Assembly: GCF_023516435.1 (NCBI RefSeq)
Contig: NZ_CP097332.1
Coordinates: 1,674,001-1,738,000, forward strand
Source of the DNA: Jatrophihabitans telluris
GTDB lineage: Bacteria; Actinomycetota; Actinomycetes; Mycobacteriales; Jatrophihabitantaceae
DNA length: 64,000 bases
Direction: 5' to 3'
In this document: in pieces, positions 44,940-47,519 of the stretch
Layout: every line of letters begins with the position of its first letter
Position numbering within the stretch: the first letter of the stretch is position 1
Position numbers and translations under genes: made by a program
Notes under the pieces: generated by a model
Database searches by the model: none
Seen by the model: the letters and a program-made list of their open reading frames with translations, nothing else
What the model was told of the DNA's origin: nothing

Positions 44940-44966
44940 CCGCCCGGTCCGTCCGTCCCTTCCCCT

Positions 44967-45014
44967 GCCGGTCTCTTTCCCCCGCCGGTCTCTTTCCTCT
45001 GCCGGTCTCTTTCC
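44967..45014 (+). repeat. 17-bp tandem repeat, three copies
   Basis: Core GCCGGTCTCTTTCC at 44967, 44984 and 45001, period 17. The array ends exactly where the first REP-like palindrome starts. Confidence 0.9.
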
Positions 45015-45083
45015 GCGAATGGGCAGTTCAGCGCCGAATGGGCAGGTGTAACCGCCCATTCGCTGCCGAACCGCCCATTCGCG
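45014..45083. repeat. REP-like double palindrome upstream of the nuclease-like gene
   Basis: A nested inverted repeat centred at 45048.5. GAATGGGC occurs at 45017-45024 and 45036-45043, and its complement GCCCATTC at 45054-45061 and 45073-45080. The outer arms CGCGAATGGGC/GCCCATTCGCG pair perfectly, and the intervening ~11 bases pair with a few mismatches. It would fold into a ~70-base hairpin. A sister copy lies downstream at 46158-46223. Confidence 0.92.
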
Positions 45084-45124
45084 GTGGTGGAAGGGGCGCC
45101 GGGACGGGTTATCGGATAGGGATA

Positions 45125-45141
45125 TTCGAACTCTGTTCGAA
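45125..45141. promoter_or_regulatory. SOS-box-like dyad TTCGAAC-TCT-GTTCGAA
   Basis: A perfect 7-bp inverted repeat with a 3-base centre, 73 bases before the likely start of the nuclease-like gene. The half-sites TCGAAC and GTTCGA are those of the actinobacterial LexA box, but the spacer is one base shorter than the usual four, so LexA binding is uncertain. Confidence 0.5.
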
Positions 45142-45214
45142 GCCGTCAGTTCGGTCGTCCACAGACTGGCCGAACGGTGGGCGCGGCTCCCTCGCGGGCG
45201 GGCACGGTGGGCGG

Positions 45215-46081
45215 GTGCAATCCCGACCCGTGCCCGACAACCCGCGCGTCCGCCTCGCTCGGGGTTGCTACACCGACCGGGCAGACTTCGATCTCCGGGC
45301 CAGGTGCGCCCAGCTGCTGGAGATCAACCCTCCGGAGACGGTTGTTTCTGGCCTGGCTGCGGCGGCCCTGCACGGTCTGTGGCTTCCCGACTCAGTCGTA
45401 CAACCCGAATTCGCCACCGTGACGACGGGGAAAGCGTCTGATCACATGACGCGGTCTCGGCGCCCGGAGTTGCGGACGCACAGAAATGAGATCCGCCGCG
45501 CTGATGTGACGGTGCTCGACGGACTCCCCGTAACGACGCTTGCCCGGTCCTGGTGGGCCCTGGGTGCGGTGCTGCGGTTGGCCGATCTCGTCGCTGCCGG
45601 TGACTGTGCGCTGCGGCTGGGCGTGACCATCGACGCGTTGGACGAGCAACGGCGACTGTGGCGAGGGCGCCGGGGAAACCGGACAGTCGCGGCGGCGCTT
45701 CCGCTGTTGGACCAACGTTCGCGATCGCGTCCCGAGACACACCTCCGGGTAATCGTCCGACTGGGCGGCTTGGACTGTTTCGATGTGAACACGCCCATCA
45801 GCAACTCCGACGGCGAGTGGCTCGCCGAGCCAGACCTGTCCTGCGAACAGGCTCGCGTTGCCCTGGAATATCAAGGTAGCGATCATGCCGAGCTGAGCCG
45901 GATGCGCAGGGACATCACCCGAGCCACGGATCTGCGCCGGGCCGGTTGGATGCTGCTGAACTACGGTCCGGCTGAGGTGTTCGGGCGGCCGGAGCAGATT
46001 GCTCCCGAGCTGCGACATCTGGTTCAGCGCCGCGCGCCACAGGTTCGGCTCAAGCGACCGGTCAGCAACCGACTCCACTAA
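45215..46081 (+). CDS. PD-(D/E)XK/DUF559-like protein (AbiEi-type N-region)
   Basis: A 288-residue protein with GTG 45215 (GTG 45230 also possible). The N-terminal part, with RARCAQLLEINPPETVVSGLAAAALHGL, resembles AbiEi/wHTH-type modules; key pieces are ETVVSGLAAAALHG. The C-terminal ~115 residues look like a Vsr/DUF559 nuclease: helix SRPETHLRVIV (E174), EPDL (D207), then VALEYQGSDH (E218, Q220) and RRDITRATDLRRAGWMLL. Third codon positions are less G/C-biased than in neighbours, consistent with acquisition or fast evolution. It is framed on both sides by REP-like palindromes and tandem repeats. Nuclease activity is inferred, not shown. Confidence 0.72.
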   Translation: MQSRPVPDNPRVRLARGCYTDRADFDLRARCAQLLEINPPETVVSGLAAAALHGLWLPDSVVQPEFATVTTGKASDHMTRSRRPELRTHRNEIRRADVTVLDGLPVTTLARSWWALGAVLRLADLVAAGDCALRLGVTIDALDEQRRLWRGRRGNRTVAAALPLLDQRSRSRPETHLRVIVRLGGLDCFDVNTPISNSDGEWLAEPDLSCEQARVALEYQGSDHAELSRMRRDITRATDLRRAGWMLLNYGPAEVFGRPEQIAPELRHLVQRRAPQVRLKRPVSNRLH

Positions 46082-46110
46082 CCGTGTCCCGCGTCGGTGC
46101 CCCGCGAATG

Positions 46111-46157
46111 GTGTCCCGCGTCGATGTTCCGCGTCGATGTTCAGCGTCGATGTTCCC
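46111..46157 (+). repeat. 13-bp tandem repeat downstream of the nuclease-like gene
   Basis: GTTCCGCGTCGAT-like units at 46126 and 46139, preceded by a 15-base variant (46111) and followed by a partial copy. It ends at the second REP-like palindrome, mirroring the array upstream. Confidence 0.85.
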
Positions 46158-46223
46158 CGACTGGGCAGTTCGGCAGCGAATGGGCAGCTACGGGTGCCCA
46201 TTCGCGACCGAACTGCCCATTCG
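46158..46223. repeat. REP-like double palindrome downstream of the nuclease-like gene
   Basis: Centred at 46190.5 with the same 19-base period as the upstream copy: GACTGGGC 46159-46166, GAATGGGC 46178-46185, complements 46196-46203 and 46215-46222. CAGTTCGG pairs with CCGAACTG in the spacer. The middle segments and loops differ from the upstream copy, so the two are diverged members of one family. Confidence 0.92.
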
Positions 46224-46331
46224 CGCCAACAACCCGGGCGGCGCAAAGGGACCCGGGGCGCGCGAAGAAAGCCGGGCGTGCGAGGGACCTGGAGTGTGAG
46301 GGACCGGGGAGGAGGAGGACGAGGAAGTGGG

Positions 46332-46712
46332 TCAGGCGCGAGGGAGGGCTTTGACGGCACAGTCATCCACGCCGCAGCTACCGCACGAGCCCCCGCAAGC
46401 ACCACCAGGCACCGCGGCGGAAATCGCTGCATCCACTCGCGCCTCGTCCCGGGCGGCCTCCAGCGCCGCCAGATCCTGCACAGCTGATCGCCACAGCCCG
46501 ATCACGATGCCCAGCAGGACCACGGCCACGGCAAGTACCAGGATGCCTACGGCGGTGAAAAGTGCCCCGCGGCCGCTGACCAGCGGCAACGATCCGACTA
46601 CCAACAATCCCAGAGCCGGCGCCGCCAGCACGCCGGCCAGTCGCCGACGTGAGGACGGCGGTACGGCACGCAGGTCGGTCACCGCCTCAGTATCCGCCGC
46701 CCCGGACCGCAT
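46332..46712 (-). CDS. Small two-TM membrane protein with Cys-rich tail
   Basis: A 126-residue protein. Two adjacent TM segments (LAGVLAAPALGLLVVGSL and TAVGILVLAVAVVLLGIVIGL) are followed by a helical stretch rich in Ala/Glu/Asp and a C-terminal cluster CGGSCGSCGVDDC (spacing C-x3-C-x2-C-x4-C). That cluster could bind a metal or a cluster. No family is recognised. ATG 46712 lies only 24 bases from the divergent GTG of the FAH-family gene, so the promoters must overlap. Confidence 0.65.
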   Translation of the reverse strand: MRSGAADTEAVTDLRAVPPSSRRRLAGVLAAPALGLLVVGSLPLVSGRGALFTAVGILVLAVAVVLLGIVIGLWRSAVQDLAALEAARDEARVDAAISAAVPGGACGGSCGSCGVDDCAVKALPRA

Positions 46713-46723
46713 CGGGGCACCGG

Positions 46724-46729
46724 TAGCCT
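46724..46729 (+). promoter_or_regulatory. -10 element TAGCCT for the FAH-gltX unit
   Basis: TAGCCT lies 7 bases before GTG 46737, within the 24-bp divergent gap. Confidence 0.6.
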
Positions 46730-46736
46730 CATCGAC

Positions 46737-47519
46737 GTGCGTATTGCCAGATTCGTTTCTCAAGCCGGTATCTCCTGGGGCGTCGTGGAGGGTCCGGCCG
46801 ACGCCGGCCCGGACGGGCTGACCCTTGCCGCGATCAAGGACCATCCGATGGGCCCGATCGAGTTCACCGGCGATCGTTATGCCCTGTCCGACGTTCGCCT
46901 CCTAGCGCCGATCCTGCCCAGCAAGGTGATCGGCGTCGGACGCAACTACGCCAAGCACGCGGCCGAAATGGGCAATGAGGTCCCCGAGCGTCCGCTGATC
47001 TTTCTCAAGCCGTCGACATCCGTGATCGGGACGAACGATGTGATCCGGCTTCCCGTCGACTCCGACCGGGTCGAGCACGAGGCCGAACTGGCCCTGGTTA
47101 TCGGCCGGGTCGCCAAGGACGTCCCACGTGAGAAGGCTGCGGAGGTCATTTTCGGCTACACCTGCGCCAACGACGTGACCGCTCGGGATCAGCAGCGCGA
47201 CGACGGTCAGTTCACCCGGGCGAAGGGCCACGACTCGTTCTGCCCGATCGGTCCCTGGATCGAGACCCGTTTCGACCCGTCGGCGGTCCGCGTGCGGGCC
47301 CTGGTCAACGGGCAGGTCCGTCAGGACGGGACGACCGCCGACATGGTCTTCGACATCGCCACCCTCGTCTCCTTCATGTCCCACGTCATGACCCTGGTAC
47401 CCGGCGACGTCATCCTGACCGGAACTCCCGACGGCGTAGGACCGATCCTCGACGGAGACCGGGTGACGATCTCCATCGACGGGATCGGCGAGCTCACCAA
47501 TCAGGTTCGGAGAAAGTGA
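46737..47519 (+). CDS. Fumarylacetoacetate hydrolase-family protein
   Basis: A 260-residue FAH-fold enzyme. [16 protein letters not shown] leads into the core and metal ligands lie in [11 protein letters not shown] and [26 protein letters not shown] closes the site. Members act as acylpyruvases, hydratases or decarboxylases, and the substrate cannot be told. Equivalent to Rv2993c, which also precedes gltX. GTG start, leaderless. The stop overlaps gltX in TGATG. Confidence 0.9.

Follow-up and report, generated by a model that had tools for sequence, protein, structure and literature searches.

A Vsr-like nuclease gene of Jatrophihabitans telluris and its relatives framed by dispersed cognate palindromes

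Why should a single nuclease-like gene lie between two copies of the same nested palindrome? This question is raised by a locus between cimA and the FAH gene of J. telluris, located in the window analyzed here (the whole stretch of DNA, 64,000 nucleotides). A previous sequence-only reading had likened its layout to that of RAYT genes framed by REP sequences, with a PD-(D/E)XK-type protein replacing the Y1 transposase.

Layout of the locus and its protein

The locus comprises the following features, in window coordinates.

44940 to 46331, no strand: cassette-bearing interval, from cimA to a convergent small ORF
44960 to 45014, no strand: 17-bp x3 tandem array, abutting the left palindrome
45015 to 45082, no strand: palindrome framing the gene on the left, 68 bp; its four cores, two forward and two reverse, are spaced 19/20/19
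45215 to 46081, plus strand: AbiEi-like + DUF559/Vsr-like (EDxHD) nuclease gene, 288 aa, GTG start
45332 to 45649, plus strand: AbiEi-like part, residues ~40 to 145, presumed DNA-binding or antitoxin-derived region, structural match to Rv2827c
45833 to 46012, plus strand: DUF559 match, residues 207 to 266; in the nuclease part as a whole, E174, D207, and E218 are the conserved acidic positions
46084 to 46156, no strand: 13-bp tandem arrays, abutting the right palindrome
46157 to 46224, no strand: right framing palindrome, same 68-bp family as the left one

Each framing palindrome consists of four 10-bp GCGAATGGGC cores at positions +1 and +20 and, in reverse, +40 and +59 (orientation +,+,-,-), the outermost left core of the right palindrome being degraded (CCGACTGGGC). 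When aligned, the two copies (45011-45083 and 46153-46225) are 79% identical, and their arms are complementary over 31 nt at 87% and over 29 nt at 90%, respectively. The 11-mer GCGAATGGGCA, with at most one mismatch, matched nine times in the window, seven times within the two palindromes, for a chance expectation of 1.6 matches in the whole window. The left palindrome scored an E value of 1.9e-16 with covariance model R2, a model built partly from that very copy. The two nested, homologous palindromes with units shared at a 19-base spacing that had been described from the letters were indeed present, each 68 bp long, as were the short tandem arrays said to precede each of them (17 bp x3 and 13 bp x3, the latter spanning 46112-46159). 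A 347-aa ORF starting at ATG 45038 was discarded as an artefact of mechanical ORF calling, because the palindrome core GAATGGGC itself provides an ATG.

The DUF559/Vsr-like C terminus claimed for the 288-residue product was confirmed by a match to PF04480 (DUF559) of 21.8 bits, above the Pfam cut-off of 20.6. The AlphaFold model (pLDDT 87, pTM 0.85) displays the nuclease fold that had been proposed as a check, and the protein is thus predicted to have a DUF559/Vsr-like (EDxHD) nuclease fold with a conserved acidic site. The suggested E174/D207/E218/Q220 site held in part: across 18 homologues, E174 and D207 are invariant and E218 is almost always E or D, but position 220 varies between Q, N, E, and D. 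In a search of PDB structures, every match was weak on its own, the best one (E value of 0.006) being to a mitoribosomal protein. Next came the AbiEi-type Rv2827c, while the C-terminal part matched the homing endonuclease I-Bth0305I and the endonuclease-like NGO0050; structures 3r3p and 3hrl were among the top matches. Profile searches retrieved NGO0050 (4.7e-6) and I-Bth0305I (0.015), and DUF559, Vsr, and homing endonucleases predominated among the viral models matched. All 18 homologues (18/18) matched AbiEi models of PADLOC.

AbiEi of Streptococcus and Rv2827c of Mycobacterium tuberculosis bind inverted repeats, Rv2827c two sets of them (PMC7319586), and by analogy a palindrome may therefore be a natural ligand of the AbiEi-like part. 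VsrA of Caulobacter, a DUF559 protein, has been linked to DNA damage (PMC12907096), which would be consistent with nuclease activity in the DUF559 fold.

The gene had also been described as less G/C-biased in its codon use than its neighbors, and the GC content at third codon positions bore this out (0.75 versus 0.83 to 0.87 in leuB, cimA, FAH, and gltX). The neighbors of the nuclease gene are cimA, a small ORF, and FAH, and no DUF1814 (AbiEii) toxin gene was found beside it. The small ORF (170 aa, 46332-46844, minus strand, convergent to cimA) has a cysteine-rich C terminus, GGACGGSCGSCGVDDC, and seems to be conserved in sequence among the congeners read.

Dispersal of the palindromes and generality of the framing

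The palindrome is not confined to the window locus. In the 4.19-Mb genome we counted 20 full copies at ~16 places, using a covariance model made from 19 of those copies, with each copy reported on both strands. Every one of them is 68 bp long. Genome-wide, the GCGAATGGGC core pattern matched 82 times on both strands, versus 5 times for the reversed control pattern. The ~16 sites were mostly intergenic, as the sequence-only reading had proposed to verify, and no copy lay inside a well-supported coding sequence; most copies were found within ~140 bp of the 3' end of some gene. Insertion into pre-existing terminator hairpins was rejected: for the 16 copies tested, complementarity between the flanks of one copy did not exceed that between flanks of different copies (P = 0.78). 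Within 150 bp of the palindromes, the density of tandem arrays was ~9 times that found elsewhere (6.0 versus 0.67 per kb), a raw ratio uncorrected for intergenic position and overlapping calls. A scan of viral contigs for the window palindrome found nothing.

The same genome encodes two further paralogues with palindromes of their own. Framing alone is no proof of a cassette, since identical palindromes, of the family framing the paralogue at 3866 kb, also flank a zinc alcohol dehydrogenase-like gene (L233:1339-1402 and 2498-2561, at 81.8 to 83.1 kb of the genome). Elsewhere, two window-type palindromes 2.7 kb apart bracket apparent ABC-transporter genes (L052:3929-6740, 3599.9 to 3602.7 kb), and four follow each other in tandem, with a period of ~177 to 187 bp, downstream of a flagellar-hook-like gene (L053:4938-5600, 3672.9 to 3673.6 kb). 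A further repeat family, GTTGAGGTTGCCCTTGTTG / AACAAGGGCAACGTCAACG, forms palindromes and 32-bp tandem arrays beside window-type palindromes (L039:7180-7223, L040:7817-7870, L038:4749-4834, and L044:5304-5401).

Homologues in other genera were framed by palindromes of other sequence. In 40 Actinomycetes genomes, each represented by its best or a high-ranking profile match (a nonrandom sample including 3 genomes already analyzed), a matching pair of palindromes lay within 500 bp of 14 of the 40 homologous genes but of none of the 708 control positions taken from these loci. Counting any palindrome within that distance, 26/40 genes and 33/708 controls had at least one, and palindrome density was 0.96 per kb for the homologues versus 0.045 per kb for the controls. 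Among 103 distinct loci with full flanks, a count that includes the discovery loci and used a slightly lower hairpin threshold, 38 had paired palindromes, 38 had single or unmatched ones, and 27 had none within 500 bp. In other classes of the phylum, a pair accompanied 2/23 genes and at least one palindrome 8/23. The family is common: of the 148 Actinomycetes genomes sampled, 118 encode such proteins, often in many copies, and the only domain described by the matching library models is DUF559 or the AbiEi antitoxin. A scan of genome contigs for close relatives gave six loci. In Jatrophihabitans sp. RYN_133 (G018), the gene lies between two of ~29 copies of its palindrome.

The idea that the pairs are always direct repeats was ruled out by 7 inverted pairs, next to 15 direct and 19 ambiguous ones. 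Palindrome length is fixed within each family, at 61, 68, or 72 bp, and the outer cores are near-invariant, which suggests recognition by an oligomer of fixed geometry. In the 68-bp family, we found no RNA-type covariation beyond column composition; core sequences are conserved as such and pairing between the spacers is no better than chance, a pattern that favors duplex recognition or recent spread over hairpin selection. In the TTGATC[A/T]TGGAG families, the inner arms covary (0.77 versus 0.46 when shuffled), a value obtained on two mixed subfamilies that is not proof of structural selection but would fit a hairpin or cruciform.

Pairing of protein and palindrome at polymorphic sites

When 19 framing palindromes were searched jointly, all 18 genomes (18/18) carried dispersed copies of their own framing palindrome, the copy counts being lower bounds (at least the numbers found). 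Among the matches listed, cross-matches occurred only between two species of one genus. Over 41 framed loci, protein identity correlated with palindrome similarity (Pearson, 0.68; 0/5000 permutations), palindrome similarity being 0.17 for protein identities below 40%, 0.35 for those of 50 to 70%, and 0.65 above 70%. The rank correlation computed over every protein pair was weak (Spearman, 0.11), because under 40% protein identity the similarity of the palindromes does not rise above noise. The nuclease gene is thus associated with its cognate palindrome.

In the eight sequenced congeners, palindrome and protein of the window type were both missing at the thresholds used; these genomes do hold more distant members of the protein family. 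Abundance of the palindrome in genomes lacking the protein had been named as an observation that would speak against a link between the two. The palindrome was not abundant in these gene-less congeners, but G016 and G021, of another genus, each harbor ~10 related palindromes (core CGAGTGGTCAC or similar), and the window-type gene was not found in their assemblies, which are 89% and 82% complete.

We then compared orthologous loci between cimA and FAH, considering congeners with both genes close together on one contig. The distance was mostly ~430 to 600 bp, versus 1798 bp in the window genome, and cimA was separated from the convergent small ORF by roughly 75 to 230 bp in the congeners read, all without the cassette. 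The comparison that had been proposed as a check thus showed clean presence or absence of the cassette. At this same site, congeners G004 and G006 (L187 and L202) carry a different four-core palindrome (GAGTTACGCGTAAC...). Likewise, the rplA, corA, and pck palindromes of the window genome were missing from the corresponding sites in the congeners examined.

Similar polymorphism was seen in another genus, that of G108. G153 and G191 cleanly lack a 95-bp palindrome of G108 at the orthologous place, where G094 has a different one, and at a second palindrome site of this genus G173 and G163 have none. Within G108, two copies of the unit are homologous solely across palindrome-gene-palindrome. At an orthologous site, G108 and G094 carry the cassette in opposite orientations, the cassette being 83% identical and the flanks 90 to 93%. 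Orthologous intergenic DNA was too divergent to define a target-site duplication, and no base-exact empty target was found. An apparent recombination breakpoint at one G108 palindrome turned out to be an IS110-family insertion. This 1349-bp element (L253:9494-10842, G108:C1, by the nuclease unit at 2680473) begins precisely where a framing palindrome ends, and the orthologous site in L254 lacks it. IS110 elements are known to target REPs.

Relation to known systems and possible mechanism

REPtrons combine REP palindromes with an HUH tyrosine transposase and a GTAG tag (PMC3733652, PMC8266576). Like REPtron/RAYT (TnpA-REP) loci, the system described here has dispersed palindromes of its own kind on both sides of the enzyme gene, with many solitary intergenic copies and a palindrome type that varies with the enzyme. 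However, the REPtron enzyme is an HUH Y1 protein, whereas the present one combines AbiEi and EDxHD parts of an unrelated fold; its palindromes measure 60 to 72 bp instead of 20 to 40, and, unlike in REPtrons, paralogues are often numerous within one genome. No HUH/Y1 or catalytic tyrosine domain was detected in 18 members with Pfam, NCBIfam, and PADLOC, the models matched being DUF559, MTES_1575, and AbiEi, and no GTAG was seen at palindrome ends in the copies read from the window genome and other framed loci. The system works like a REPtron but is not one, since enzyme and tag differ, although layout and dispersal are common to both. The proposed RAYT/REP-like layout, in which a PD-(D/E)XK-type protein stands in for the Y1 transposase, is supported, and the three findings named in advance as speaking against it (a palindrome restricted to this locus, its abundance without the protein, and a protein model lacking a nuclease fold) were not made.

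Vsr-like (EDxHD) homing endonucleases of the I-Bth0305I type share the nuclease fold and possibly homing at a symmetric target. They differ in being intron-borne, while the gene studied here is free-standing between two whole copies of the target, encodes an additional AbiEi-like region, and has a target dispersed as a repeat family. With AbiE type IV toxin-antitoxin systems (AbiEi/Rv2827c), whose AbiEi proteins bind inverted repeats, the window protein has the AbiEi-like part in common, but it carries a C-terminal nuclease fusion, has no adjacent AbiEii/DUF1814 toxin gene, and its repeats lie on both sides and are dispersed. The 13E12 / DUF222-HNH repeat genes are abundant multicopy nuclease genes of actinobacteria. 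Although multicopy in the same genomes, DUF222-HNH control genes from overlapping genomes had no framing palindrome at any of 30 loci (0/30). In the open-access literature, we found no description that links DUF559 to palindromes or repeats, to AbiEi, or to homing.

A possible role of the nuclease in mobilizing or processing the palindromes gains support from their co-divergence with the protein, their dispersal, and the polymorphism of their sites. We propose, with a probability of about 70%, that the locus is a unit of a widespread actinobacterial system of nuclease and cognate palindrome, a REPtron-like or homing-like selfish element. Acting as a dimer or a higher oligomer, the protein would use its AbiEi-like part to bind half-sites of its own palindrome, and the Vsr-like part would nick or cut at the bound palindrome. 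Repair or strand transfer could then copy the palindrome to new intergenic places and occasionally the whole palindrome-gene-palindrome unit, with the solitary scattered palindromes representing non-autonomous elements. The broader proposition stands at about even odds: that palindromic mobile repeats throughout the phylum are each driven by their own AbiEi-Vsr nuclease, with no known transposase, the fixed-length palindrome being recognized, perhaps as a cruciform or single-stranded hairpin, and copied by an undescribed route.

Alternatively, other machinery could spread the palindromes, and the nuclease gene could be a homing endonuclease that targets them and hence lies between copies. The likeness of the nuclease part to I-Bth0305I is in line with this, as are the palindromes of G016 and G021 without a window-type gene. 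The opposite orientation of the G108 and G094 cassettes, together with their lower identity than the flanks, is also what independent entry into a symmetric target would give, but recombination between palindromes would likewise invert the cassette. We nevertheless consider homing alone unlikely, given that the palindromes co-diverge with the protein, that each of several paralogues within a single genome is accompanied by a palindrome of its own, and that the eight congeners lack both gene and palindrome.

Two other explanations appear less probable still. The AbiEi-like protein might be a transcription factor with the palindromes as operators and the dispersed copies as its regulon, the nuclease being secondary; AbiEi and Rv2827c do autoregulate through inverted repeats (PMC7319586). 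Yet most copies in the window genome sit near the 3' ends of genes, one copy also lies downstream of the nuclease gene itself, no DUF1814 toxin gene adjoins it, and the nuclease residues E174 and D207 are invariant, which makes a regulon very improbable. RAYT systems do spread palindromes (PMC3733652, PMC8266576), so that an unrelated Y1/RAYT or IS transposase might mobilize them in trans, with the DUF559 genes as passengers. This we regard as the least probable reading: framing was not seen around DUF222-HNH genes, another abundant nuclease family, the palindromes co-diverge with the DUF559 protein, and the duplicated G108 unit holds the nuclease gene only.

If the pairing proves functional, the nuclease-palindrome system would give DUF559/AbiEi-like family proteins a substrate and account for a large number of actinobacterial intergenic palindromes, and the REPtron lifestyle would have arisen independently with an unrelated enzyme. 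Since each framed protein comes with a predicted DNA target and natural non-cognate controls in the same genome, the pairing is directly testable. Overall, the framed genes found across actinobacteria, each with its own palindrome, point to an undescribed self-spreading DNA repeat with a dedicated nuclease.
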